In this document: positions 1 through 34,017 of the stretch, in pieces
Layout: every line of letters begins with the position of its first letter
Numbering within the stretch: position 1 is the stretch's first letter
IMG/VR virus record: IMGVR_UViG_3300037096_000090
Coordinates: 1 to 34,017 of that record
Reading direction: 5' to 3' (one strand)
DNA from: a virus
Length of the DNA stretch: 34,017 bases
Program-made: the position numbers and the translations under genes
Notes under the pieces: model-generated
Told to the model about the DNA's origin: nothing
The model's input: only the letters and a program-made list of their open reading frames with translations
Databases searched by the model: none

Positions 1-127
1 AAGATTCATGATGCGCAATCCTTCTAATACCTGTTCACCAATATCAGAATATTCAACGAGTTCATACTCTAACTGTTCTAACTGATCTTGGGAGATAGTA
101 TCAGCACTTTGCTCTTTAGGATTGTAC
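1..127. repeat. Terminal direct repeat, left copy (assembly overlap)
   Basis: These 127 bases are identical to the last 127 bases of the window, from the first base to the last. An exact overlap of 127, a common maximum assembly k-mer, is the signature of a circular contig, so this is probably one locus written twice. The genome is then circular, or circularly permuted with terminal redundancy, and 33,890 bp long. The repeat lies inside the ERF gene, whose reading frame continues correctly across the junction. Confidence 0.95.
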
Positions 128-630
128 TTAGTATTTAGAGCGGTTCCCTTGCTTTGCTCATCACGCACACCGGCCATTACTCGTTCACCATCATCATCCT
201 CATCTGAGGTTATGACACCGGTTAACGCAGCATAGGAGTATCTCTTTAAATAAGTAATGCAAGAACCCAGAGACTGAATATCATTCTTGATAGGAAGTAT
301 ACGCATTTGAGTACTTATAAACTGCCCCGAAGAATGAGCTAGAATGCAATGAAGTACATTTTGGCCATTATCGTTCGGTAGAATCTGATGTATTACGCTC
401 AGGCCATATTTGGTGAGCGCAGGACGTGATGCACGAACAATCTCAGCGAAATCTGCGTAACGAGATTTGAAGTAAGGATTCTCTGAAGATAGTCCCGCAG
501 TTCTCATTTCAGATTGTGCTTTAGCAAGTGCAGAAAACAGCTCTTTTAGATCTGGAGACCGACTTGGCATCGGGGTATAATTTTCACAGGATATATCGTC
601 TACTAAAGAATACTCTTTGTTATTTTCCAT
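1..630 (-). CDS. erf: ERF-family single-strand annealing recombinase, N-terminal part (gene crosses the window ends)
   Basis: The ATG at 628-630 opens a leftward frame that runs off base 1 and resumes at 33890, ending with TAA at 33810-33812. The whole protein is 236 aa. ERF proteins anneal complementary single strands during phage recombination and genome circularisation. The ERF signature is visible at about residues 35-80: a LAKAQ segment, then NPYFKSRYADFAEIV and RPALTKYGLSVIHQ, the conserved 'fkSkYAdla.v...rp.L.k.GLsv.q' pattern. The C-terminal third is acidic and then basic, as is usual. An AGAGAGG ribosome site lies a few bases upstream of the ATG. It is the first gene of a leftward unit that also includes an HNH endonuclease and a 96-aa protein. 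ERF was assigned from motifs alone. Confidence 0.88.
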   Translation of the reverse strand, partial: MENNKEYSLVDDISCENYTPMPSRSPDLKELFSALAKAQSEMRTAGLSSENPYFKSRYADFAEIVRASRPALTKYGLSVIHQILPNDNGQNVLHCILAHSSGQFISTQMRILPIKNDIQSLGSCITYLKRYSYAALTGVITSDEDDDGERVMAGVRDEQSKGTALNTKYNPKEQSADTISQDQLEQLEYELVEYSDIGEQVLEGLRIMNL

Positions 631-4586: not shown

Positions 4587-4669
4587 TTATCAGTTGCAGA
4601 CAGTTGGCCTCTATTAATAATGCTATTAATAATGCTATTAAGAATGCTATTAAGAAAGTAGTTATATGA
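4583..4669 (+). CDS. 28-aa peptide with repeated INNA/IKNA units
   Basis: The short frame starts in an ATGA overlap with the embedded frame upstream and ends in an ATGA overlap with the RHH gene at 4666. It reads MIISCRQLAS followed by INNA, INNA, IKNA and IKKV-VI, because four 12-bp tandem repeats fall in frame. Overlapping stops and starts on both sides suggest it may serve as a translational-coupling leader for the RHH gene rather than as a functional peptide. No Shine-Dalgarno sequence of its own is obvious. Confidence 0.35.
   Translation: MIISCRQLASINNAINNAIKNAIKKVVI
4611..4658 (+). repeat. Four 12-bp tandem repeats (CTATTAATAATG type)
   Basis: Units: CTATTAATAATG (4611-4622), the same (4623-4634), CTATTAAGAATG (4635-4646) and CTATTAAGAAAG (4647-4658). 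The 12-bp period keeps a coding frame, giving tetrapeptide repeats. They may be binding sites for the RHH protein encoded immediately downstream, since RHH proteins often bind short tandem sites in front of their own genes. Confidence 0.8.
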
Positions 4670-4885: not shown

Positions 4886-5116
4886 ATGAAATCACATCTC
4901 ATGAGCAACGTTATTGATTATTCTAAAGTGTTTGAGGAGCCTATGAGAACTATGTTTGAGCCCCAGGTATTAAGCATGAGATTGGAAAAAGGAATCATAC
5001 ACCGCTTGCGTGAAAAGTCCGTTAAAGATTCTGTTCGCACTAACTCTCACGTATCGGTAGCTTCATTAGTAATAGAAGCTTTGAAGAAAGTTTATCCGGA
5101 ACTATTTGCTCCGTAA
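4886..5116 (+). CDS. Ribbon-helix-helix-like DNA-binding protein 2
   Basis: 76 aa. After a 25-residue N-terminal extension the RHH pattern appears: strand QVLSMRLEKG, helix A IIHRLREKSVKDS, helix B SVASLVIEALKKVYPELF. The ending matches the preceding RHH gene, indicating duplication. The last two codons and stop fall inside the left copy of a 107-bp direct repeat, so the same gene ending is repeated at 5655 without a gene. An alternative ATG at 4901 would shorten the N-terminus. Confidence 0.6.
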   Translation: MKSHLMSNVIDYSKVFEEPMRTMFEPQVLSMRLEKGIIHRLREKSVKDSVRTNSHVSVASLVIEALKKVYPELFAP

Positions 5117-5215
5117 TAAGAACTACTATAATATCAACTATGTATTTTCCTTTTTTTGAACAGACTATCGGGCTTCTTCATTCTCCCGATAGTCTTTGCT
5201 TTAAACTCTTACATA
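5109..5215. repeat. 107-bp direct repeat, left copy
   Basis: Matches 5655-5761 with one difference (C/T in the AACTA(C/T)TATAAT part). It contains the end of RHH gene 2, an AT-rich TATAAT sequence, a T-rich tract and a strong terminator hairpin. The right end also encodes the last codons of the SpoVG-like gene reading leftward. The two copies bracket 439 bp of unique sequence, consistent with insertion of a foreign fragment with duplication of the site. Confidence 0.95.
5163..5202 (+). terminator. Rho-independent terminator after the packaging operon
   Basis: Perfect 10-bp stem GACTATCGGG / CCCGATAGTC with a 12-nt loop, followed by TTTGCTTT. It ends rightward transcription after the second RHH gene, and leftward transcripts of the SpoVG-like gene also run into this hairpin. 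A second identical copy lies in the right-hand direct repeat. Confidence 0.85.
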
Positions 5216-5479: not shown

Positions 5480-5651
5480 TGGCGTTTCCTTTTGTTACAT
5501 TGTCTTCGTGATGCCATTCAAATAAAATCGCAAAAAAGTCTGTGACCATTTTTTCATCGCTTGTTTGCGGAGAGTATTTCTTTTCAGTGGAAATGCGACT
5601 ACTTAAAGTTACACTTGTTTTTGAGTTAACTTCTTTCCATAATTGTTTAAT
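5430..5651 (-). pseudogene. Start-less leftward gene remnant next to the direct repeat
   Basis: An open frame of 73 codons without a usable ATG begins within 4 bp of the left edge of the right 107-bp repeat (5655) and stops inside the SpoVG-like gene. It encodes a hydrophilic stretch and then EKMVTDFFAILFEWHHEDN. The overlap with the start of the SpoVG-like gene looks like a natural operon junction, so this is probably the 3' end of an upstream gene cut off when the cassette was captured. A 39-aa version could start at ATG 5549 but lacks a ribosome site. Confidence 0.45.
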
Positions 5652-5654
5652 TTA

Positions 5655-5761
5655 CTCCGTAATAAGAACTATTATAATATCAACTATGTATTTTCCTTTT
5701 TTTGAACAGACTATCGGGCTTCTTCATTCTCCCGATAGTCTTTGCTTTAAACTCTTACATA
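5655..5761. repeat. 107-bp direct repeat, right copy
   Basis: Second copy of 5109-5215, offset by 546 bp, with one substitution. It begins with the last bases of an RHH gene (CTCCGTAA) that is not present here, which shows the left copy is the original context and this copy a duplication. Confidence 0.95.
5709..5748 (+). terminator. Second copy of the operon terminator
   Basis: Same perfect 10-bp stem and TTTGCTTT tail as at 5163. It precedes the portal region, so portal transcription must start downstream of it or read through. Confidence 0.8.
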
Positions 5762-11115: not shown

Positions 11116-11285
11116 AGCCTACAGAGAGAGGAGTGCAGCTATGTGTAGTTAATAGTGCAGCTAACGGTGCAGCTAACGGTGCAGCGAAGAGCGAGAAACT
11201 CCGATTTTTACGCCACAAATACAGCTTATTTTTTTGTATAATTTTACTGAAACAATCCACTTATAAATTGGGAGTAAAAGTATAA
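11094..11285 (+). CDS. Doubtful 63-aa frame with Ala-Asn-Gly-Ala repeats
   Basis: The frame starts in the loop of the 13-bp inverted repeat and has no ribosome site. It includes SAANGAANGAAK from in-frame 12-bp repeats, a hydrophobic stretch (YSLFFCIILL), and ends in the right 36-bp repeat. The pattern of in-frame 12-bp repeats echoes the 28-aa peptide at 4583. Low support as a real gene. Confidence 0.2.
   Translation: MKNFYMNEPTERGVQLCVVNSAANGAANGAAKSEKLRFLRHKYSLFFCIILLKQSTYKLGVKV
11155..11190 (+). repeat. Three 12-bp tandem repeats (GTGCAGCTAACG)
   Basis: Two exact units (11155-11166, 11167-11178) and a third that diverges after GTGCAGC (11179-11190). A looser copy lies at about 11133. 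Possible protein sites or slippage product. Confidence 0.75.
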
Positions 11286-22095: not shown

Positions 22096-23403
22096 ATGTT
22101 TATAATACCGCAACAACAAGGAATTGGTGAGATCTTGGGACAAGGTCTCAACGATGTTGTATCACACTGGGCTGATAAACATACAACAGCTAAAGCGTTA
22201 AGGGGACTTGGATTTAGTGATGTTCAGGCAAAAGCATATTCCCATTTTAGTCCCCAAATACAACAGGAGGCCATAGCAGCAAAGCAACGCGAACAACAAA
22301 AACAGGAGGCTAATAGAGTAATAAGTCAAATTCTCGGTGAAGAGTTGCCACAACCGCAATATCAACAATCTATGAATCAGTTTCAACAACAACCGCAGCA
22401 ACAAACTCAAATGATGCAGCAACCAAGACAAGAAAGACAACAGCAGGCTATTCAAGAAGCAACGAGCGTATTACAAAATCCTGCTTTCAGAAAACTACAG
22501 GAACAGCAACAGCAGGGAGCGGCACTTCAGCAACAACAGTTGGCACAGCAATTTGGACAATCACACGGCAAACAGCAGCCTACCCCGGAACAGAACGCGA
22601 TTGCTCAGGCAGAATCTAAACGAGAACAGAAAGAGAAAACACCTAAGGAACGATTAGAACAAATAAGAAATCAGAAGCGTGCTCTTGCCTCAGCGGGTCT
22701 TAGCCCTATTGATCGTCTCTTTGTTCAGAATGAACTCACTAATCAAGAGAGTGCTCTTAGAAGAGAGATGGAGCAAGAAAAAAAACAGTCGTTGGAAGAA
22801 AGGAAATTTGGTTACCAGAAGCAGAAAAATATTGATAAGGAAACGCTTCCCACCTATCAAAAAATAAACGAATCAGCAAAAGGAGCATACGATAGTAATT
22901 TGAGATTAGGAAGAATGGAAAAACTTATTGATGACGGACGTGTTCAATCTGGCGTTTTTTTTAGAGGTTTGCAAGCCTTAGAAGAGGTGCCTTATATTGG
23001 CAAACTTGCTGGTATCATCAGTGCAGCAGTTACGAATACTAATACCCAAGAATTTAAAAAACTTAGTGCTGACTTTGTTAAGGATGCTAAACAGTTCTTT
23101 GGAAGTCGTGTTACTGAAAATGAAGTACAACTATTTTTAGAAACAGTGCCTTCGTTAGTGCAAACTGCAGATGGACAGAAACGTGTCATACATAACATGA
23201 GACTTGTGAATGAGGCTGCAAAGGTAAGAAAATCCACAATGGATGAGCTTATTAAAGAAAATAATGGAGAGCGTCCAATGGACCTAGAATCTTTAATAGA
23301 AAAAAGGTCATCTGAGAAGTTAGATAATATTGCAAAAAGATTCGTAGACGAAATAAGGGATACACACGTAAGTCCTAAATCGCCCATAAGGTGGTTCAAC
23401 TGA
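22096..23403 (+). CDS. Internal virion / ejection protein candidate 2 (Gln-rich coiled coil)
   Basis: 435 aa. The N-terminal amphipathic region (IGEILGQGLNDVVSHWADKH) is followed by long Gln-rich coiled-coil stretches (residues about 60-260), then a helical domain with LIDDGRVQSGVFFRGLQALE and SRVTENEVQLFLETVPSLVQ, ending basic. The composition matches podovirus pilot/ejection proteins such as P22 gp16 or gp20 in style, not in recognisable sequence. It ends the rightward virion block; a leftward accessory block follows. Confidence 0.6.
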   Translation: MFIIPQQQGIGEILGQGLNDVVSHWADKHTTAKALRGLGFSDVQAKAYSHFSPQIQQEAIAAKQREQQKQEANRVISQILGEELPQPQYQQSMNQFQQQPQQQTQMMQQPRQERQQQAIQEATSVLQNPAFRKLQEQQQQGAALQQQQLAQQFGQSHGKQQPTPEQNAIAQAESKREQKEKTPKERLEQIRNQKRALASAGLSPIDRLFVQNELTNQESALRREMEQEKKQSLEERKFGYQKQKNIDKETLPTYQKINESAKGAYDSNLRLGRMEKLIDDGRVQSGVFFRGLQALEEVPYIGKLAGIISAAVTNTNTQEFKKLSADFVKDAKQFFGSRVTENEVQLFLETVPSLVQTADGQKRVIHNMRLVNEAAKVRKSTMDELIKENNGERPMDLESLIEKRSSEKLDNIAKRFVDEIRDTHVSPKSPIRWFN

Positions 23404-23411
23404 AACTGATG

Positions 23412-23434
23412 TATATAGTTTAAGTAGCATTACT
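23412..23434. repeat. 23-bp direct repeat, left copy
   Basis: TATATAGTTTAAGTAGCATT plus ACT, identical to 23970-23992. The stop codon and last residues of the leftward 61-aa membrane protein lie inside it, the same arrangement as the SpoVG-like gene ending in its flanking repeat. Confidence 0.9.
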
Positions 23435-23605
23435 TATTTTTCTTATTACTGCGCACAGTAATTGTATTAATAGAAATGGAATCATTATTGCAAGTGACGT
23501 GTATCCTATTACGAATATAGGAACTAATAGTTCAGGAACTATTAAAAATATAGCAGCCACTGCAATGCATATAATTACAAAATTTTTCTGAATAAGTTCT
23601 TTCAT
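23420..23605 (-). CDS. Leftward 61-aa integral membrane protein
   Basis: MKELIQKNFVIICIAVAAIF, then LIVPELLVPIFVIGYTSLAI and MIPFLLIQLLCAVIRKISNA: two or three closely packed membrane helices. Its ATG overlaps the stop of the RHH-like remnant upstream (ATGA), so the two were one operon. Similar in layout to the RHH plus 54-aa membrane pair to its right. Could be a holin, an immunity protein or a hydrophobic toxin; not identified. Confidence 0.55.
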   Translation of the reverse strand: MKELIQKNFVIICIAVAAIFLIVPELLVPIFVIGYTSLAIMIPFLLIQLLCAVIRKISNAT

Positions 23606-23769
23606 TGTAGTACCCCGTCTCGTTTCAATTTTTCTACTACTGCAGTAAATACATACTGCGTTATAGTCATGTTTATGGATAATACATAGCGTTTTATCTT
23701 CTCATGAAGTTCTGGCGCGATATTTGCAACTAATCGCTTATAAGTTGGTTCAACCTTTAAAAAGGGTTG
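23602..23769 (-). pseudogene. Start-less RHH-like gene (antitoxin-type)
   Basis: The open frame encodes VEPTYKRLVANIAPELHEKI, then KRYVLSINMTITQYVFTAVV and EKLKRDGVLQ. This is a good RHH pattern: strand YKRLVANIA, helix PELHEKIKRYVLSI, turn NMT, helix ITQYVFTAVVEKLKR. No ATG, GTG or TTG precedes the strand before the stop at 23770-23772. The 5' end may have been lost at the junction with the structured element to the right, or an unusual start is used. Confidence 0.5.
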
Positions 23770-23935
23770 CTATGACGTTCGAAGATAAGAACCGACTCAC
23801 CATTAAGTACATTTTAATTGTACATAATATGCGGGTTGGTTAAGCTGAAAACTGCCATCCAAGCAGTTGACGGGTAACTCACCCGTCAGCTTTGTTTACA
23901 GAAGCCGGAAGGACGGGAATCCTTCTGGCTTCCAA
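23752..23935. ncRNA. Candidate structured RNA region (five consecutive hairpins)
   Basis: In order on the plus strand: CAACCTTT-AAA-AAGGGTTG (8 bp with one G.U); a long stem AACCGAC/GTTGGTT enclosing GTAC...GTAC; AACTGC/GCAGTT; TGACGGGT-AACTC-ACCCGTCA followed by GCTTTGTTT (terminator-like for the plus strand); and GAAGCCGGAAGGA/TCCTTCTGGCTTC. A 23-aa frame (23772-23843) lies inside with a fair ribosome site. Dense pairing outside any solid gene suggests an RNA element or a stacked terminator. Confidence 0.4.
23772..23843 (+). CDS. Possible 23-aa peptide within the structured region
   Basis: MTFEDKNRLTIKYILIVHNM, then RVG. AAAGGG lies 6 bases before ATG, and a terminator-like hairpin follows at 23868-23888. 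The sequence overlaps RNA stems, so translation and folding would compete. Weak support. Confidence 0.2.
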   Translation: MTFEDKNRLTIKYILIVHNMRVG

Positions 23936-24060
23936 CACTTAACAACCAATGAAACGTATGTATATTTCTTATATAGTTTAAGTAGCATTACTATCACTGA
24001 TTCTAATGCCCGTATTACTATAAAGAATGCACAATAGGAAAGTGCGAAAGTCATAATCAT
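23896..24060 (-). CDS. Leftward 54-aa membrane protein
   Basis: MIMTFALSYCAFFIVIRALE, then SVIVMLLKLYKKYTYVSLVV and KCWKPEGFPSFRLL. One membrane helix near the N-terminus, a basic stretch and a second hydrophobic patch. GGAGG lies 4 bases before the ATG. It follows the RHH gene by 26 bases. The right 23-bp repeat runs through it (MLLKLY), and its C-terminus is encoded by the last hairpin of the structured region, so the original end may have been replaced. Confidence 0.45.
   Translation of the reverse strand: MIMTFALSYCAFFIVIRALESVIVMLLKLYKKYTYVSLVVKCWKPEGFPSFRLL
23970..23992. repeat. 23-bp direct repeat, right copy
   Basis: Exact copy of 23412-23434, offset by 558 bp. It brackets the RHH remnant, the 61-aa gene and the structured region. 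Confidence 0.9.
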
Positions 24061-24086
24061 AATGCCTCCATTTGGGAGCTATATAG

Positions 24087-24242
24087 TTATTTATGTTTTT
24101 CTTCTCTAACAATCTTTTCTGTGATTGCCTGTAATAGCCATGTTCTTAGGGGAATGCCGAGGTCTAGAGCCCTTTGCTTTAGATCTTTTATGAGCTCGGT
24201 ATCTACCCGAAAACCTATCTGTCTATAATCTATCTTTTTCAT
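24087..24242 (-). CDS. Ribbon-helix-helix (Arc/CopG-like) protein 3
   Basis: 51 aa: MKKIDYRQIGFRVDTELIKD, then LKQRALDLGIPLRTWLLQAI and TEKIVREEKHK. Strand YRQIGFRVD, helix A TELIKDLKQRALDLG and helix B PLRTWLLQAITEKIV form a textbook RHH. AAGGA lies 7 bases before the ATG. A 12-bp palindrome and a TATAAT lie immediately upstream on the same strand, consistent with autoregulation. Likely a repressor or antitoxin for the small membrane protein downstream. Confidence 0.7.
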   Translation of the reverse strand: MKKIDYRQIGFRVDTELIKDLKQRALDLGIPLRTWLLQAITEKIVREEKHK

Positions 24243-24262
24243 GATCAATCCTTATTAACTTA

Positions 24263-24283
24263 TTATCATGATAACATATTATA
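24263..24283 (-). promoter_or_regulatory. Leftward promoter and palindromic operator of the RHH gene
   Basis: On the minus strand TATAAT (24278-24283) lies just upstream of the perfect palindrome TTATCATGATAA (24263-24274), which sits about at the transcription start. The 12-mer ATAACATATTAT (24271-24282) is shared with the erf promoter. RHH proteins commonly bind such palindromes to repress their own genes. The -35 is weak. Confidence 0.45.
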
Positions 24284-24354
24284 ATAACATTGCAAGTTTA
24301 GAAAGAGTTTGGTCTACTAGGGGTAAGCATCACTCATTAAAAAAGGAGTAGGCA

Positions 24355-25044
24355 ATGGGAGTTAATCGTACCTATCCAAATGTTGGATATGGGCTCTCCG
24401 ACGCACTTTTAAACGTCTTTCCAGCACCTATTGTATCAACACGAAACCCTACGGCAAATGACACCGCCCAGTTTGGGACAGTATGGGTCAATAAATCCGC
24501 AAATTCCTTCTACGTTCTGACGTCTGTTGTTGCGGGTAATTCTACCTGGACAGCTCCAGCTAGTGGAGCAGGAGTATTTACTTCTGTAGAGGCTACTACG
24601 GGCAATATTACTGCTGATGTAGGCAATATAGTTGCTACGGCAGGAAATCTAACAGTTACAGCGGGTAATGTATTGGTTAGCGCAGGGACCATTACGGCTA
24701 CTGCAGGTAAGATATCCGGATATTCATTGGAAGCAACAATCGGCAATATCGTTGCTGATACTGGCAATGTAAATCTAACCGCCGGTAATATTAACGTCAC
24801 CTTGGGTAATATTTTTTGTCCATTAGGGTTTGTAGAAGGGGCTACCGTTACCGCGACTGGTGATTTGGGAGGTTTAACATCTCAAACTGCATTTACTAAT
24901 GTTGTTAATACAACACAGAGTAGTGGATCATTAACATTGTTGTCGGCTAATGCTAACAATGGTACTAATGCAGGATTTTTAAAGATATATGTAGGAACAG
25001 TTACGGCATATGTGCCGTATTTCACATCAATAACCCCAGCGTAA
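24355..25044 (+). CDS. Tail fibre protein with TAGN-type repeats
   Basis: 229 aa with AAAAAAGGAG upstream. The N-terminal domain (to about residue 70) has GTVWVNKSANSFYVLTSVVA then GNSTWTAP, shared in style with the 787-aa fibre and probably a virion anchor. Residues about 80-155 are short repeats (ATTGNITADVGNIVATAGNL, TVTAGNVLVSAGTITATAG), a likely triple-stranded beta-helix. The C-terminal region is Thr/Asn-rich. First gene of the fibre locus. Confidence 0.7.
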   Translation: MGVNRTYPNVGYGLSDALLNVFPAPIVSTRNPTANDTAQFGTVWVNKSANSFYVLTSVVAGNSTWTAPASGAGVFTSVEATTGNITADVGNIVATAGNLTVTAGNVLVSAGTITATAGKISGYSLEATIGNIVADTGNVNLTAGNINVTLGNIFCPLGFVEGATVTATGDLGGLTSQTAFTNVVNTTQSSGSLTLLSANANNGTNAGFLKIYVGTVTAYVPYFTSITPA

Positions 25045-25060
25045 AAGAAAGGGATGCCTT

Positions 25061-25249
25061 ATGGATATGAAGAATCATATCGAGTTTGAGATAGTAAAGA
25101 ACGAGAGAACCTATCGCTTTTGTATGCCAGCAGGAGCTCCTTTTGGAGAAATCTATGATGCTGCATTTGAAGTACTGACTGAGGTGACTCGTTTGGCACA
25201 AGATGCTGCTGAAAAAGCTAAGCCAAAAGAGCTTACCGAAGGGCAGTAG
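25061..25249 (+). CDS. Small acidic protein in the fibre locus
   Basis: 62 aa: MDMKNHIEFEIVKNERTYRF, then CMPAGAPFGEIYDAAFEVLT and a helical, charged tail. A beta hairpin followed by a helix is predicted by eye. The ribosome site AAGGGATGCCTT precedes it, and the next gene starts 2 bases after its stop. Possibly a fibre-assembly factor. Confidence 0.6.
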   Translation: MDMKNHIEFEIVKNERTYRFCMPAGAPFGEIYDAAFEVLTEVTRLAQDAAEKAKPKELTEGQ

Positions 25250-25251
25250 CA

Positions 25252-25587
25252 ATGGCTGCACAAAATAAAGTACAAGCGGTAGCATTATCCATTTTCAATT
25301 CGGCATCAATAACAACAAGTTATCAAATAATAAACACCGGTGGTCTTTCGGCAGCCTGTTTTTTGATACGGGTCGTTAACGCATCTGATGAGAATATCAT
25401 CATAAGCTATGACGGGGTTACGGATAATGAAGTAGTCCTTTCCGATTCGGCAGTGTATTTAGACTTTCAAGCTAATGCCCAACCAACAGGATGGACTTCA
25501 TTATTGGCTAAGGGGACGGTCGTATATGCTAAAGGAACTGCGGGGACGGGAACCATATATCTTAGCGGCTATTACATAGCGCAATAA
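25252..25587 (+). CDS. Small beta-rich fibre-locus protein A
   Basis: 111 aa. The core FLIRVVNASDENIIISYDGV, then TDNEVVLSDSAVYLDF and GTVVYAKGTAGTGTIYLSGY is aligned residue by residue with the following gene ('N..D..i..S.dG..dn..L..ss..lD..aN...a.GT.vY.K..gt...g.vY.s.yy'). All-beta, probably a small virion tip or collar protein. Confidence 0.6.
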   Translation: MAAQNKVQAVALSIFNSASITTSYQIINTGGLSAACFLIRVVNASDENIIISYDGVTDNEVVLSDSAVYLDFQANAQPTGWTSLLAKGTVVYAKGTAGTGTIYLSGYYIAQ

Positions 25588-25602
25588 AAAAAGGAGAGTA
25601 GT

Positions 25603-25944
25603 ATGGGGTCTTTAGCAATTCGAATAATGCCTGAGCCAGTACGTTCATTAGCATTTGGCTCTATCAGTGCTGCATATATGCCTATAGGTACTTCTTTTGC
25701 CAATCCAGTACGTATATTTTTTATACAAAATCTTACTGATGCATTGCTGATGTTTTCGTTCAATGGTATTGATGATAATTTTCCTTTGCCACCATCCAGT
25801 TTTTTACTACTTGACGTAACAGCAAATAGAACAGTGTCCCAGGGATTTTATATTGCTGAAGGGACCTTTATCTATGTAAAAGAGATAGGTACCCCTACGC
25901 TGGGATCAGTATATGTGTCTGTGTTTTATGGCATAGATATTTAA
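25603..25944 (+). CDS. Small beta-rich fibre-locus protein B (paralogue of A)
   Basis: 113 aa. IFFIQNLTDALLMFSFNGID, then DNFPLPPSSFLLLDVTANR and GTFIYVKEIGTPTLGSVYVS parallel the preceding gene, so they arose by duplication and diverged. AAAAAGGAG lies before the ATG. Role as for A. Confidence 0.6.
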   Translation: MGSLAIRIMPEPVRSLAFGSISAAYMPIGTSFANPVRIFFIQNLTDALLMFSFNGIDDNFPLPPSSFLLLDVTANRTVSQGFYIAEGTFIYVKEIGTPTLGSVYVSVFYGIDI

Positions 25945-25953
25945 GGAGCTCCT

Positions 25954-26748
25954 ATGAGTCAGGCTGGTCGTTTTCTTGATAACTCTGGGGGGATGGGACC
26001 TATACAAACGATTACCGGGAATACCGGTGGTCCGGTAGGTCCTGACGGTTCTGGAAATATTAATGTAGTTGGTGGTAATAATATTACTGTGGCGGGAGAT
26101 GCTGCAACTAATACTGAAACAGTAAGTGTCACCGGTACTACAAATCATGCAGTTCAAGTTGGTAACGCTTCTGGATCATTAACATCCATCCCTGTTGGAA
26201 CCAATGGGGAACTACTCATTGGCGCAACCGGAGCCAATCCAGCATTCGCATTACTTACATCAACCGGTGGAACCATCGCCTTTACTGTAGGACCCAATTC
26301 TCTCAATTTAGAAGCATCGGGAGAAGTGGCCCTTACCTTTGATGGTGATACCGGAACTGCAGCACCATCCGGTGGTGTAATAAAAATATTAGGTGACCCT
26401 AACATAACAACTATTGCTTCTGGTAATGAAATACAGATAACACTGAACAAAAGTTTTGTTATAGGGTTTACCTCCGTAACTACGACTCCCTATGTTGTAT
26501 TATCAACGGATAATTTTCTTGGTGTTACCACTTCTGCATTAGCTATAACGGTAGAATTACCCAATGCACCGGCAACAGGACGCATATTTATCATAAAAGA
26601 CTCAACGGGTGATTCAGCAACTAATCCAATAACAATAACTACCGTTGGTGGATCAGTAGACATTGATGGAGGTACTTCGTACACCATTAATACTGATTAT
26701 GAGGCTATAAACGTCTTATTTGATGGAACTGGTTACGAAATATATTAA
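25954..26748 (+). CDS. Tail fibre protein with shared TSTGGTI module
   Basis: 264 aa. The N-terminal QAGRFLDNSGGMGPIQTITG, then GPVGPDGSGNINVVGGNNIT, leads into the module NGELLIGATGANPAFALLTS TGGTI...NSLNLE that recurs in the next two fibre genes. The C-terminal half has a separate beta domain (VVLSTDNFLGVTTSALAITV; IKDSTGDSATNPITI) like fibre tip sandwich domains. Structural. Confidence 0.7.
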   Translation: MSQAGRFLDNSGGMGPIQTITGNTGGPVGPDGSGNINVVGGNNITVAGDAATNTETVSVTGTTNHAVQVGNASGSLTSIPVGTNGELLIGATGANPAFALLTSTGGTIAFTVGPNSLNLEASGEVALTFDGDTGTAAPSGGVIKILGDPNITTIASGNEIQITLNKSFVIGFTSVTTTPYVVLSTDNFLGVTTSALAITVELPNAPATGRIFIIKDSTGDSATNPITITTVGGSVDIDGGTSYTINTDYEAINVLFDGTGYEIY

Positions 26749-26759
26749 AAGGAATATAA

Positions 26760-29700
26760 ATGGCATATGTCGGTCCATTTCCCATACAGGTAAAAGACGG
26801 TGGGACGGGTGATTCTACGCTTACTATTCATGGTGTATTAATTGGTGATGCAACAGGTAATGTTTCTACAACAGCAGCAGGAACAAATGGTGAAGTTTTA
26901 ATAGCAGCGACCGGAGCTAATCCGGCTTTTGCAGCGCTGACCTCAACAGGAGGTACTGTAATATTTACTCCGGGTGCTAATAGTTTGAATTTAGAAACTG
27001 GTTCCTCTGTAGCTATTACCTTTGATACCGGTTCAGGTAGCGCTACTCCTTCAGCAAATACAATTACTATTGCAGGGGGTACTGGGATTACTACATCGGG
27101 TTCAGGTTCAACCGTTACTATTACTTCTACTGTAGCAGGTGGCATACAGATAATAGACGGAAATTCGGGATCGGTTACTGGATCAACGGTCACCCTAACC
27201 ACGGGTGCATCTAACGCAAATGGAACCACCAAGTTCACTGGTTCTGGTACCATAATGACGATGACATTTAATGATTCAGGCGAAAATATAGGTATAGGAC
27301 CGAGTGTATTTGAATCTATGGCTGGCGGTGGCTATAATATGGCAATTGGCGAGTTGGCTGGAGCAAGTATAACTACGGGAAGTTATAACGAGTTAATAGG
27401 ATTTTCTGCGCTCGTTACAGGAACCGGAGATGGAAACGTTGTAATTGGACATAATGGATTAAATCAGTTGCTCGGTGGAAGTTATAACGTTGGCATTGGA
27501 TATGAAGCAGGAATTGCCTACACCGGTGCTGAAAGCAGTAATATTCTTATTAATTCACCTGGTACCATTGGAGATTCCTATACTCTACGCATAGGTGATG
27601 CAACCGGTACGGGAAATCCTCGATATCTTAATGCCGCATATATTTGTGGAATAAATGGAATCAATGTAGGTTCAGTTGCTTCGGTAGTATCAATCAGTGG
27701 TGATCAGTTAGGTTTTACGACCTTAACGGCTGGTGCGAATGTTACTATAACGCCCGGTGCTAAGACTATCACTATTGCGGCGGGAAGTGGTTCAGGTGCA
27801 ATTACCTTTGATACAGGAAGTGGAACCGCTACCACCTCTGCAAATACAATTACTATCGCAGGCTCAGGAGATGTAACTACATCAGGAACTGGGTCTACAG
27901 TTACTGTTACAGGATCAGGTGCAAATACATTTAATGCAGGAACAGGAAGCGCAACAGCATCTTCCAATGCAATTACTATTGCTGGTGGTACTGGCATAGT
28001 AACAACCGCAACTGGATCAACGGTTACTATTACGGCTAGCGGCGAAGCAATGACGTTTGATTCAGATAGTGGAAGTGCTACTCCTTCTGCAGGAACGATC
28101 ACTATGCACGGAGCGGGAGATATAACTACATCAGCAACTGGATCTACTGTTACGTTTACTGGTGCAGGAACTACCACATTTGATGCAGATAGTGGTAGTG
28201 CAACAGCTTCGTCAAATACGATTACTATAGCAGGTGGTACTGGCATAAATACCTCAGCAACTGGCGCAACGGTCACGGTTAATCTTACTCATCCAGTATC
28301 AGTAGCAGATGGTGGTACGGGTGCTGCTACCCTGACCGCGCATAGCGTATTATTAGGAGAAGGCACCAGTGCAATCTCTAATACAGGTACTGGCACTGCT
28401 GGCCAAGTCATAGTCAGTGGTGGTTCATCTGCTGATCCAGCATGGGTTACACCTACTGCAGGTACCGGACTTACGGTAACCGAAAATGCAACTACCTTAT
28501 CCTTTGGATTATCTACACCGGTATCCGTAGCAAATGGTGGTACGGGTGCTGCTACATTTACGGCAGATTCATTGCTCATCGGTAATGGTACCGGTGCTAT
28601 AACTGCCCTTGGTGCTGCCACCAATGGACAGATTCCAATTGGTTCTACCAGTGCTGCTCCGGTACTATCAACAATCACCGCAGGATCCAACGTCACCGTA
28701 ACCAATGGTGCTGGTTCTATCACCATTGCTGCTGGCAGTGGATCTGGTGCTACCACATTTGATGCAGATAGTGGTAGTGCAACAACTTCATCAAATACGA
28801 TTACTATAGCAGGTGGTACTGGCATAAATACCTCAGCAACTGGCGCAACGGTCACGGTTAATCTTACTCATCCAGTATCAGTAGCAGATGGTGGTACGGG
28901 TGCTGCTACCCTGACCGGCGTACTAATAGGAAATGGTACCTCTGCAGTTACGGGCAATGCAGTAACTCAATATGATGTTCTGGTTGGTGGTGCAACTAAT
29001 GCTATAAGTTCAATAGCACCGTCAGCAACAGCGGGAGTTCCCCTCATATCAGGAGGTTCTGCAGCAAATCCATCATTTGGCACTGCAGTTGTTGCTGGAG
29101 GAGGGACTGGCGCTACCACTTTAGCATCTGACGGTGTTTTAATAGGCAACGGAACGAGCGCGGTAACCGCTACGGCTGCAGGAACTAATGGTGAAGTTCT
29201 TATAGCAGCAACATCAGCAGCGCCGGCATTTGCCGCATTAACATCAACCGGTGGCACTATAACCTACACTCTCGGTGTAAACACTCTTAATTTAGAAACG
29301 ACAAGCACTGGTTCAGGCATAGTCACATTGGATGGAAATTCTGGGTCTGCAACAGGGTCAACGGTAACAATAACTACCGGCACATCTAATACTCAAGGTA
29401 CAGCATTATTTACCGGTTCTTCAGCCAAATTGACTTTAACCTTTGATAATCTTTCAACAGGAAATATAGGATTAGGTTATAACAGTTTAAGTGGCGCTTC
29501 ATTGAGTGGTGATAACAATGCATGTTATGGATACAGAACGGGTGTAGCTATTACATCTGGTAGTGCTAATACATGCGTAGGTATTTCATGTGGGGAAAAC
29601 ACTACCACTGGAAGCTCTAACACATATGTAGGATATGTTGCAGGATTCAATTTCACGACTGGCAGCGAAAATGTAGGTATAGGGTATATGGCTTGTGGTT

Positions 29701-30251
29701 CCACTTCAACTGTGACTGGATCGAATAATATATGTATAGGAGCTTTAACTGCCGCCAATTATGATGCGGCAGAAAGTTCTAATATATTGATTGCCAATTC
29801 TGGAACAGCTGGCGAGTCAAATGTATTGAGAATAGGAACCGCAACAGGGACGAGTACTGGTGATCTTAACAAAGCTTTTATAGCAGGTATTACCGGAATA
29901 ACTGTTACTGGTGTCGCTATTCTCATATCCAGCGGAAATCAACTTGGAGTTGCAGCGTCGTCGCAGCGATTCAAAAATGACATACAATCAATGACCAATG
30001 AGAGCAATCTATTATATAAGGTGCGGCCAGTATCATTTGTCTGGAATAAGGATTCATCACCGGGACTTGCCGATGCTACCGATGATCGTCAATTTGGATT
30101 GATAGCAGAAGAGGTACATGCTATCGCACCATCGATGGTAAATATGGATAAAGAAGGTAAGCCATTTAATATTAGCTATGAAAAGTTTATTCCATTACTG
30201 ATAAATGAATTACAGAGATTAGCAAAACGAGTAGAAGAACTAGAAAACTAG
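26760..30251 (+). CDS. Large tail fibre with C-terminal S74 intramolecular chaperone
   Basis: 1163 aa. Many copies of a Thr/Ser/Gly unit (TFDTGSGSATPSANTITIAG then GTGITTSGSGSTVTI) form a repetitive shaft. Two blocks (near residues 180-300 and 900-1050) have YadA-like left-handed beta-roll repeats such as GSYNVGIGYEAGIAYTG and GSENVGIGYMACGS. Residues about 1067-1163 are a Peptidase_S74 chaperone: SSQRFKNDIQSM with the Ser-Lys pair, then VRPVSFVWNKD, FGLIAEEVHAIAPSMV and the final coiled coil LINELQRLAKRVEELEN. This domain trimerises the fibre and then cleaves itself off. Contains a 168-bp in-frame repeat. Confidence 0.88.
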   Translation: MAYVGPFPIQVKDGGTGDSTLTIHGVLIGDATGNVSTTAAGTNGEVLIAATGANPAFAALTSTGGTVIFTPGANSLNLETGSSVAITFDTGSGSATPSANTITIAGGTGITTSGSGSTVTITSTVAGGIQIIDGNSGSVTGSTVTLTTGASNANGTTKFTGSGTIMTMTFNDSGENIGIGPSVFESMAGGGYNMAIGELAGASITTGSYNELIGFSALVTGTGDGNVVIGHNGLNQLLGGSYNVGIGYEAGIAYTGAESSNILINSPGTIGDSYTLRIGDATGTGNPRYLNAAYICGINGINVGSVASVVSISGDQLGFTTLTAGANVTITPGAKTITIAAGSGSGAITFDTGSGTATTSANTITIAGSGDVTTSGTGSTVTVTGSGANTFNAGTGSATASSNAITIAGGTGIVTTATGSTVTITASGEAMTFDSDSGSATPSAGTITMHGAGDITTSATGSTVTFTGAGTTTFDADSGSATASSNTITIAGGTGINTSATGATVTVNLTHPVSVADGGTGAATLTAHSVLLGEGTSAISNTGTGTAGQVIVSGGSSADPAWVTPTAGTGLTVTENATTLSFGLSTPVSVANGGTGAATFTADSLLIGNGTGAITALGAATNGQIPIGSTSAAPVLSTITAGSNVTVTNGAGSITIAAGSGSGATTFDADSGSATTSSNTITIAGGTGINTSATGATVTVNLTHPVSVADGGTGAATLTGVLIGNGTSAVTGNAVTQYDVLVGGATNAISSIAPSATAGVPLISGGSAANPSFGTAVVAGGGTGATTLASDGVLIGNGTSAVTATAAGTNGEVLIAATSAAPAFAALTSTGGTITYTLGVNTLNLETTSTGSGIVTLDGNSGSATGSTVTITTGTSNTQGTALFTGSSAKLTLTFDNLSTGNIGLGYNSLSGASLSGDNNACYGYRTGVAITSGSANTCVGISCGENTTTGSSNTYVGYVAGFNFTTGSENVGIGYMACGSTSTVTGSNNICIGALTAANYDAAESSNILIANSGTAGESNVLRIGTATGTSTGDLNKAFIAGITGITVTGVAILISSGNQLGVAASSQRFKNDIQSMTNESNLLYKVRPVSFVWNKDSSPGLADATDDRQFGLIAEEVHAIAPSMVNMDKEGKPFNISYEKFIPLLINELQRLAKRVEELEN
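28171..28338 (+). repeat. 168-bp in-frame direct repeat in the fibre gene, left copy
   Basis: Matches 28750-28917 at 166 of 168 positions (differences in AACAGCTTCG vs AACAACTTCA). Encodes TTFDADSGSATASSNTITIA through VSVADGGTGAATLT. Offset 579 bp, a multiple of 3, so recombination would change fibre length by 193 residues without frameshift. Confidence 0.95.
28750..28917 (+). repeat. 168-bp in-frame direct repeat in the fibre gene, right copy
   Basis: Second copy of 28171-28338. Far more similar at DNA level than the other protein repeats in this gene, which points to recent duplication or ongoing gene conversion. Confidence 0.95.
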
Positions 30252-30259
30252 GAGTATAA

Positions 30260-32623
30260 ATGAGTAAACGTTTAACGGGGTTAAATCCCTTAGCATACAT
30301 TGGAGTGGAGTCTTTGACCCCTCCCTCCATGTACCTTTCAAATACATCACCTACATCCAGTGACTCACGCAATTTTAACCTGGGTGATATGTGGCTCAAT
30401 AAAGAAACACAGGTTCTCTATATATTAGTAAGCCTTGCGGCGGGCGTTGCTACATGGGTAGCAGCACCAGGAGCTACAACAACATTTGTGACCGATGGTG
30501 GATCAGCGGTTGATTTTGCTGGTATTATAAATATTTTTGGTGGCAATAGTATTGATACCACGGCATCGGGTAATACTATCACCATAAACTTACAGAATGA
30601 TATTACTGTTGATGGCATACGGGTTACTTCATTGACTGATGGGGTGATACAGGGTGATTCAACAGGAATTTTATTTGCGAGTAATGGTACCGATGGTCAG
30701 CTATTGATAGGTGGTGGCACTGCGCCTGAATGGGCACCCCTTACATCTCTTGATGGCTCTATAGATTTCACACTCGGCAACAATTCTTTGGATCTTTCTG
30801 TGGCTTCGGGCGCTGGCGCAGATAGCTTTGTGACTGATTCCGGAACCGCAACGCCATCGGGTGGCGCAATTGATATTGTGGGTGGTGGCACAACGATAAC
30901 AACTTCAGCAACAGGTAATATTGTCACCGTAGAGATTCCAAACGCTACTAATGGCCAACTTATCATTGGTAGCACCGGCAATCCGGTAGCCTTTGGTAAC
31001 ATCACTTCATTGGACGGTTCTATTACCGTTGCTAATGGATCTAATACGATAGATCTTTCAGCTCCTACGGCATCAGGCACTACAACGTTTCACACGGGCA
31101 GTGGTACAGCTACAGAGGCTGGTGGCGCTATCACCATTACGGGTAGTTCTGTACTTGATACAACGGGTTCTGGTTCTACAGTTACGGTTGGATTGACTTC
31201 TTCTACCAATGGTCAGCTTATCATCGGGCATACGTCAGGTAATCCAGCGTGGGCTAATCTTACCTCTATGGGTGGCACGGTTACGATTACCAATGGTGCC
31301 AGTACCATCAATCTTGAAGCAACTGGTGGCGGATCGAGTGGTGCATCGACATTTATCACGGACTCGGGCAATGCTCTTGAGGTTTTGGGTGATATTACTA
31401 TGGCAGGTGGTACTAATATAAGTACCTCTGGATCTGGTCAGACCGTTACATTTAATGTATCTGGTACGACTAATAACAGTATATTGCGGGGTAATTCTAG
31501 TGGTGGTATATCCTCCCTTTCTGCTGCTACAAACGGCCAAGTTTTGCTTGGATCTACTGGTGCTTCTCCAGCATTTGCCACACTGACCTCAACGGGTGGG
31601 ACTATTACCTTCACGCCGGGTGCAGCGAGTCTCAATTTAGAGGCAGTTGGTGGTGCGGGTGGTGGTATTATAGTTACCACATTTATGTCGTCAGGGACCT
31701 GGACTAAGAATGTTAATACTCAGTATGTAGAAGTCTATGGCTGGTGTGGTGGTGGCGGAGGGGGTTCTGGTGCCCGGAGTAGTACTCCAGGTTCAGCACA
31801 ACAAGGTGGCGGAGGAGGAGGTGCTGGATCTGCATTTAGATTTGGTGGCCCCGAGATGTTCTTTGGAGCGACTGAGACTGTCATGGTTGGCGCAGGCGGT
31901 TTAGGCGCTGCCGGTCAGACAATTAACAATACGGGTGGGCTCTTGGGTTCGAATGGTGGCGTCAGTTCATTTGGCAATATATCTGTGCCAGTATTTGTTT
32001 CGAATAGTATAAATGATACGGCGGCCTACCAAGGGGGTGGTGGCGGTAACACTATTGAGCAAAATATTGCTTCTGGTGGTGGTGGCGTATTCCTGGACTC
32101 GCTCACAACACGTACCTTTGTAGCGTCATTGTCGGTTCAATCCCGCACTGTGTTACCTAAATATGGTAATGGCGGCAAGAATAGTGTAACTAATGGGGCA
32201 GCGGGAGCATATGGGGGTGGTGATGGCACACCAAGTTTTGCTTTTATCTATAATCTACCGACATCGGGTGGTCAGGGGGGTACAGCAAGTACTACTACTG
32301 CATATTCTGGTGGTGCTGGTGGTGATATGTATGCCATTGATGGTACTACGATACTTGTGAATGGTGGTACAGGCGGTATTGAGACAGGCACTATAAACGG
32401 TGGCAATGGTAATCCTATGCCGACGAGGGGTGGTTTGGTCTATGGTGGTACCGGTGGAGGTGGTGGTGGTGGACAGAAATCAGGTGGTGTAGCAGGCATC
32501 GGTGGTAAAGGTGGACTTCCTGGTGCTGGCGGTGGCGGAGGCGGAGGATCATTTAATGGTACACTTTCTGGTGCCGGTGGTAATGGTGCAGATGGCTTTG
32601 TATTAGTATTGGAGTACTTATGA
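30260..32623 (+). CDS. Tail fibre / adhesin with C-terminal polyglycine-rich domain
   Basis: 787 aa. N-terminal anchor-like domain (LGDMWLNKETQVLYILVSLA, AGVATWVA) related to the 229-aa fibre. The middle repeats the TSTGGTI...SLNLE modules shared with neighbours. From about residue 475 (TFMSSGTWTKNVNTQYVEVY, then GWCGGGGGGSG) comes a Gly-rich domain with runs of four to seven Gly and loops between, ending GADGFVLVLEYL. Such domains form packed polyglycine II helices in receptor-binding adhesins such as the gp38 of T-even relatives. Likely the receptor-binding tip. Overlaps the next gene by 4 bp. Confidence 0.75.
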   Translation: MSKRLTGLNPLAYIGVESLTPPSMYLSNTSPTSSDSRNFNLGDMWLNKETQVLYILVSLAAGVATWVAAPGATTTFVTDGGSAVDFAGIINIFGGNSIDTTASGNTITINLQNDITVDGIRVTSLTDGVIQGDSTGILFASNGTDGQLLIGGGTAPEWAPLTSLDGSIDFTLGNNSLDLSVASGAGADSFVTDSGTATPSGGAIDIVGGGTTITTSATGNIVTVEIPNATNGQLIIGSTGNPVAFGNITSLDGSITVANGSNTIDLSAPTASGTTTFHTGSGTATEAGGAITITGSSVLDTTGSGSTVTVGLTSSTNGQLIIGHTSGNPAWANLTSMGGTVTITNGASTINLEATGGGSSGASTFITDSGNALEVLGDITMAGGTNISTSGSGQTVTFNVSGTTNNSILRGNSSGGISSLSAATNGQVLLGSTGASPAFATLTSTGGTITFTPGAASLNLEAVGGAGGGIIVTTFMSSGTWTKNVNTQYVEVYGWCGGGGGGSGARSSTPGSAQQGGGGGGAGSAFRFGGPEMFFGATETVMVGAGGLGAAGQTINNTGGLLGSNGGVSSFGNISVPVFVSNSINDTAAYQGGGGGNTIEQNIASGGGGVFLDSLTTRTFVASLSVQSRTVLPKYGNGGKNSVTNGAAGAYGGGDGTPSFAFIYNLPTSGGQGGTASTTTAYSGGAGGDMYAIDGTTILVNGGTGGIETGTINGGNGNPMPTRGGLVYGGTGGGGGGGQKSGGVAGIGGKGGLPGAGGGGGGGSFNGTLSGAGGNGADGFVLVLEYL

Positions 32624-33809: not shown

Positions 33810-34017
33810 TTATTTGTTGCCATTGCGTGCTGCCTTTATCTGCCTGATGCGTGTTAAAGAAGATATGAACTTATTTTTTGGCATATCAGCAAGATTCATG
33901 ATGCGCAATCCTTCTAATACCTGTTCACCAATATCAGAATATTCAACGAGTTCATACTCTAACTGTTCTAACTGATCTTGGGAGATAGTATCAGCACTTT
34001 GCTCTTTAGGATTGTAC
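33810..34017 (-). CDS. erf: ERF-family recombinase, C-terminal part (continues at base 630)
   Basis: This is the 3' end of the gene described at 1-630. The frame enters from the right edge and stops with TAA at 33810-33812. The part unique to this side (33810-33890) encodes a basic tail ending in RQIKAARNGNK, plausible for DNA contact. The HNH endonuclease gene starts about 30 bases further along the same strand, so the two are probably co-transcribed. The full gene is 711 nt including the stop once the circle is closed. Confidence 0.85.
   Translation of the reverse strand, partial: YNPKEQSADTISQDQLEQLEYELVEYSDIGEQVLEGLRIMNLADMPKNKFISSLTRIRQIKAARNGNK
33891..34017. repeat. Terminal direct repeat, right copy (assembly overlap)
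   Basis: Exact copy of positions 1-127. Joining base 33890 to base 1 restores a continuous open frame for the leftward ERF gene, which supports true circular continuity rather than a biological long terminal repeat. A genuine 127-bp terminal repeat cannot be excluded without read coverage. Confidence 0.95.

Follow-up and report, generated by a model that had tools for sequence, protein, structure and literature searches.

A near-identical in-frame repeat in the tail-fibre gene of an Erf-encoding phage: probable recombination between fibre modules and plausible variation in fibre length

The fibre gene, its modules, and the annealing protein

The window, i.e., the whole stretch of DNA analysed here, comprises 34,017 bases and corresponds to the IMG/VR virus record IMGVR_UViG_3300037096_000090. 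The genes and modules that matter for this analysis are the following.

26760 to 30251, plus strand: tail-fibre gene, a single open reading frame (ORF) of 1163 aa with a shaft of repeated modules and a C-terminal S74 chaperone (PF13884; PHROG matches)
27012 to 28287, plus strand: five of the six T modules of this gene (family D1; T-module HMM), starting at 27012, 27798, 27921, 28047, and 28170; the sixth starts at 28749
30260 to 32623, plus strand: a second gene of fibre-like appearance (787 aa), which contains four T modules and has a long C-terminal part rich in glycine
1 to 630, minus strand: single-strand annealing protein of the Erf family, whose ORF continues beyond the contig start, across the circle join

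Upstream of the fibre gene there are matches to terminase, portal, and tail proteins, an arrangement that places it among the clustered tail genes of a tailed phage. In the fibre ORF itself, Pfam places the S74 chaperone domain at residues 1067 to 1127 (E = 9.8e-10; 39 bits against a cut-off of 22), and the PHROG matches are to tail spike/fibre and virion structural families. With this C-terminal domain and its location in the tail cluster, the gene would be classified, judging by its sequence, as a tail fibre or tail spike of the S74 type. Its shaft is an array built from two kinds of repeated modules, the T module (about 41 residues, six copies) and the GGTG module (five copies by a strict pattern), and is capped by the S74 chaperone. 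An AlphaFold2 single-chain model of residues 460 to 735, made from 9 sequences, had a mean pLDDT of 52.7 and near-zero secondary structure, so that its fold is unusable. The second fibre-like gene has no match in Pfam or PHROG. Elsewhere in the window, there are two short arrays of 12-bp units, at 4611 to 4653 and 11155 to 11185.

The preliminary description of this DNA had assigned an ERF annealing protein to the phage, and profile searches bear this out: the ORF matches PF04404 with an E value of 4.6e-18 (66.1 bits against a cut-off of 25) and phrog_2324 with an E value of 5.6e-39. An Erf match above the cut-off is also found in 17 of the 20 related records searched, including two matches each in G033, G037, and G044. 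The other three records, of 12,963, 13,718, and 21,821 bases, may be fragments.

A near-identical pair within the shaft

The repeat in question lies inside the fibre gene and consists of the following parts.

28171 to 28338, plus strand: repeat copy 1, residues 471 to 527, identical to copy 2 at 166 of 168 positions
28212 to 28338, plus strand: exact 127-bp core, with its partner at 28791 to 28917
28339 to 28749, plus strand: stretch separating the copies, which contains an additional GGTG module at residue 593 and would be lost, together with one copy, in a 579-bp deletion
28750 to 28917, plus strand: repeat copy 2, residues 664 to 720
28890 to 28937, plus strand: GGTG module belonging to copy 2; its linker, located at the right edge of the repeat, has 2 residues (4 residues being the norm)

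The identity of 166/168 and the offset of 579 bp, or 193 codons, are as first described, and both copies lie within the single fibre ORF. The copies differ at two positions, 28206 (Ala to Thr) and 28211 (silent), which leaves exact runs of 35, 4, and 127 bp. Both differences are G/A, too few (n = 2) to judge whether they reflect adenine-specific change of the type caused by diversity-generating retroelements; none of the ORFs scanned against Pfam and PHROG matched a reverse transcriptase. The copied stretch begins within a T module and finishes within a GGTG module. On the left, it blends gradually into the background similarity among modules of the family, and on the right, the identity has a sharp edge at 28339. 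As the identity ends there and only 168 of the 579 bp recur, a true tandem array is ruled out; the pair is dispersed, and Tandem Repeats Finder reported nothing at this position. No other near-identical direct repeat found in the window is as long, the remaining two being a 127-bp overlap of the contig ends and a 112-bp pair at 5104/5650 (see below).

The linker of the GGTG module is 4 residues long in 26 of the 27 modules that fit the strict pattern (with a looser pattern, it has 4 residues in 31 of 39 modules and 2 residues in 3 of 39). The 2-residue linker of copy 2 was considered as a possible junction scar, an idea that was dropped because the same short linker is present in L129 and L158; accordingly, no direction of copying is based on it.

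The number of repeat units needs to be viewed in light of the assembly, for which the ends of the contig are informative.

1 to 127, no strand assigned: end overlap, identical to 33891 to 34017; the contig closes as a 33,890-bp circle

The contig IMGVR_UViG_3300046478_000082 (referred to as G001; 25,055 bases) is 99.7 to 99.9% identical to the window over long shared stretches and crosses the join with a single copy of the 127-bp ends. A real terminal repeat was rejected on these grounds, and we take the ends to be an overlap that arose in assembling a circular map; a genome with terminal redundancy would fit, too. An overlap of this size implies that the assembler probably used k = 127, which is also the length of the exact core of the fibre repeat. 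An exact repeat of at least k forms a loop in the de Bruijn graph, and its copy number is then settled by coverage or read pairs alone. Thus, the assembly itself does not establish how many 193-residue units the gene has, and the true number may differ from that in the contig, which is the chief caution in what follows. G001 cannot settle it, since this contig lacks window positions 22263 to 32566 and, with them, the entire fibre gene. It is rather unlikely, in our estimate, that the pair is an assembly effect, i.e., that two alleles or units were joined or collapsed at their common 127-mer and the real gene has a different number of units. The match in length between the exact core and the end overlap speaks for such an effect, as it points to k = 127, but the near-identity extends 41 bp past the exact core, with 2 mismatches, the frame stays open, and both junctions fall inside modules. 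Moreover, a chimera, too, would require that the stretch be present at two module positions in the population.

Possible length variants and related fibre genes

According to the preliminary description, loss or gain of 193 residues would keep the S74 chaperone in frame. This proved correct: the computed 579-bp deletion leaves an open frame of 970 aa, and the duplication gives one of 1356 aa. Searches for a second allele of the fibre gene were made in several collections, from which records very near the window may be missing. In the phage collection, blastn found no match to the fibre gene, and tblastn matched 36 of the 50,697 records, with the best place of each below 60% identity; the best 20 of these 36 matches cover only residues ~892 to 1163. 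Among the IMG/VR viral contigs, the fibre protein matched 9 distant loci (25 to 42% identity in the best segment) and no second allele, the 21-base pattern from the exact core was absent, and a search with the portal and neighbouring genes found no locus that was both close and spanned the fibre. In the genome contigs, there were 6 distant loci (28 to 47% identity) and no second allele of the fibre gene.

The suggestion that the pair could drive variation in fibre length has in its favor the recent or homogenised state of the pair (see below), the presence of Erf, the preserved frame, and the unit-sized gaps in related fibres, whereas the 579-bp variant itself was not found in these searches. 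As far as can be told from the gene, the pair is a plausible present source of fibre-length variants; such variation may be frequent, adaptive, or caused by Erf. We regard it as unlikely that the pair is a standing length switch, with forms of 970, 1163, 1356, and more residues coexisting through Erf annealing and the identity of the copies kept by selection on the switch.

Length differences on a longer time scale are seen in related phages. The fibre protein was used to search 44 of the 80 portal loci, picked by length, and gave a match at an E value of ≤0.001 in 21 of these 44 related records; stretches taken from those 21 and from two more records make up a set of 23 records and 26 loci. 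Orthologous fibre genes of 1014, 926, and 1075 aa are found in G013, G026, and G030 (L134:4805-7846, L140:1805-4582, and L144:2209-5433, respectively), and the proteins of G026 and G030 are 73% and 65% identical to that of G013. To judge from their C-terminal ends, which look different from that in the window, these appear to be relatives of the shaft and not of the whole gene. Their alignment is nearly gapless up to column ~697, bar one gap near column 223, and again over the last ~110 columns, but not in the stretch of modules in between. Relative to G013, G026 has a gap of 61 residues near column 223 and another of 43 near column 924. When G013 is matched against itself at the starts of these gaps, an offset of 61 gives 7/19 identities, the best of 280 offsets, and an offset of 43 gives 25/40, the best of 136. 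As the best offsets equal the sizes of the gaps, each gap represents one repeat unit. In addition, T and GGTG modules occupy the same position in different orthologues, which means that module types have been swapped. The repeats at the gaps are by now diverged (26/57 and 72/129 identities in DNA), so the events either are old or did not need near-identity, unless it has since been lost. Whole-module gain, loss, and swap over longer times in this phage group are seen as unit-sized gaps and exchanged module types among three orthologues; recombination would be their mechanism. A lack of length polymorphism among relatives had been named as evidence against length variation; in the wider sense, the orthologous fibres do differ, by whole repeat units.

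T modules are not confined to these genes. The T-module HMM matched 51 of 782 ORFs with a length of 200 aa or more, a set from which exact duplicates, but not fragments, had been removed; the 45 of the 51 that were listed have 1 to 6 modules each. Adjacent paralogous fibre genes sharing T modules occur as a group of three of ~400 aa (L159:12967-16652) and as a pair of ~440 aa (L149:8019-10692).

The frequency of fibre paralogues in the phage group, like the exchange of module types at a given position among orthologues, would suit an import, in which a segment of a fibre gene from a different phage took the place of one module, the other copy being either its source or a product of the same donor. 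We consider this decidedly unlikely, because the 21-base core pattern has no match in the viral contigs and neither the phage nor the IMG/VR searches revealed a donor.

Near-identical pairs within one ORF were then sought in other loci. At a threshold of 93% identity over 60 bp, there was none in the 26 loci from the 23 related records, which indicates that near-identical pairs are not the rule in these fibres. With the threshold lowered to 90%, a survey of all loci (1,892,495 bases including overlaps, with duplicate loci merged by hand) revealed five independent one-ORF pairs, in the window, G012, L125, L129, and L171. The offset was divisible by 3 in all five, compared to 2 of the 11 independent pairs that do not lie in one ORF. 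G012, a portal relative (locus L133), has an in-frame pair of 233 bp (90.6% identity, exact run of 76 bp) with the same T/GGTG module types as in the window. On a contig of a Ferruginibacter MAG, a gene that ends in an S74 domain (L125:4510-7155) contains an in-frame pair of 362 bp with 97.2% identity and the copies 429 bp apart, while the pair in L171 is located in an ORF without assigned function. Recent in-frame copying in such genes would therefore seem to be occasional, and the case in the window neither alone nor typical.

Finally, the window differs from G001 at another pair of direct repeats, which mark a cassette site between the terminase and portal genes.

5104 to 5215, plus strand: second direct repeat, 112 bp, 98.2% identical to its partner at 5650 to 5761, with a perfect hairpin; single-copy in G001

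The two copies are 546 bp apart and have a SpoVG-like gene (PF04026) between them. In G001 (site at L013:6300-9000), the sequence to the left of the first copy and that to the right of the second enclose a single copy of this repeat, which is broken by ~100 bp of other sequence. Beside it, G001 carries ~2 kb that are absent from the window, with a 631-aa ORF between 93-bp direct repeats; inspected by eye, this ORF is a putative DNA methyltransferase gene. These differences indicate that repeat-bounded changes occur in the lineage, be they gains or losses and whichever enzyme is responsible. G001 thus has one copy of a direct repeat whose geometry resembles that of the fibre pair, a point in favor of the proposed length variation, against which stands the interruption by ~100 bp.

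Recent or homogenised copies and probable recombination between modules

Whether the similarity of the two copies goes beyond what the protein sequence demands can be judged from silent positions. In 15 pairs of T modules, four-fold degenerate sites agree at 26 of 27 comparable positions in the 168-bp pair and at 5/17 to 13/23 in the other 14. In 2000 shuffles of synonymous codons with the protein held fixed, the mean number of identical positions was 126.6 (standard deviation, 4.3) and the maximum was 141 of 168; the longest exact run at the 579 offset was 32 bp, compared to the observed 127 bp. These results indicate that the DNA of the pair was copied, or kept alike, recently, in agreement with the initial view of it as recent or homogenised. 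The companion statement, that other repeats of the gene resemble each other in protein but have diverged at the DNA level, also held, as the remaining D1 copies are 64 to 71% identical to the D1 reference copy. Protein-level constraint on a structural repeat, which could by itself account for those other modules, has practically no chance of being the sole cause of this pair and is ruled out by the four-fold sites and the codon shuffle.

There is good support for reading the pair as a product of recent recombination between modules of the fibre. The fuller account, in which this recombination left a pair that can be resolved to other lengths, with Erf as the likely catalyst, is one that we consider probable. 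Gene conversion or a non-reciprocal duplication would have copied ~168 bp of one module region to another position, catalysed by Erf-type annealing that tolerates diverged sequences. In the report of De Paepe et al. (PMC3945230), the Erf protein of phage D3 recombines identical and 78% identical DNA about as efficiently as lambda Red. Based on such work on other phages and on the presence of Erf here, Erf-type annealing appears to be a likely catalyst of module recombination. Once present, the direct repeat could be resolved by single-strand annealing into the shorter or longer fibre computed above, with the frame intact, and over longer times, the same process would add, drop, and swap whole modules in the phage group. 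The Rad52-like phage recombinases described in that report, Erf among them, resemble the present case in that Erf is encoded and its activity tolerates diverged DNA. However, what was measured there, as reported, was exchange between phages and prophages and recombination in an intra-phage assay, not in fibre-gene repeats, and the Erf protein in the window is predicted from sequence.

Several known systems show related behavior. In Enterococcus phage EfV12-phi1, in-frame tandem duplications of 1.8 kb in the tail-fibre gene are reported to have arisen in 4 of 4 replicates with coevolution but in no control, with several lengths in one population (PMC6365445). As here, the change in length is in frame and within a tail-fibre gene. 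Those duplications, as described, consist of whole tandem 1.8-kb units observed in the laboratory, whereas the window is one assembly with a dispersed 168-bp pair and a 579-bp period, and complete tandem units, which characterise a tandem-duplicated fibre, do not occur in it. For a virophage, the loss of 81 nt from collagen-like repeats has been reported, along with a broader host range (PMC7242381). There, too, the repeat units are in frame, and the gene is thought to act in attachment; that report concerns another kind of virus and collagen-like repeats of 27 nt, and the deletion was seen by PCR and sequencing, in contrast to the DNA sequence considered here. The shuffling of protein fragments described for phage proteins linked to interaction with the host (PMC10684548) likewise amounts to module mosaicism within a protein, although it comes from a broad survey across phages and the present case from repeat units inside one group of genes. 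What is seen in the window is a known kind of fibre evolution, and the mechanism is not new.

De Paepe et al. remarked that phage genomes are usually without repeats and hence can tolerate low-fidelity recombination (PMC3945230). An Erf-encoding phage with a fibre gene built from repeats is a natural test of this remark. In the presence of Erf, such repeats should be unstable unless a change in length is tolerated or favored, and the unit-sized gaps among orthologous fibres indicate that, over evolutionary time, it is tolerated. Should several lengths coexist, uncultured phages would have in fibre length a trait that can be tuned quickly.
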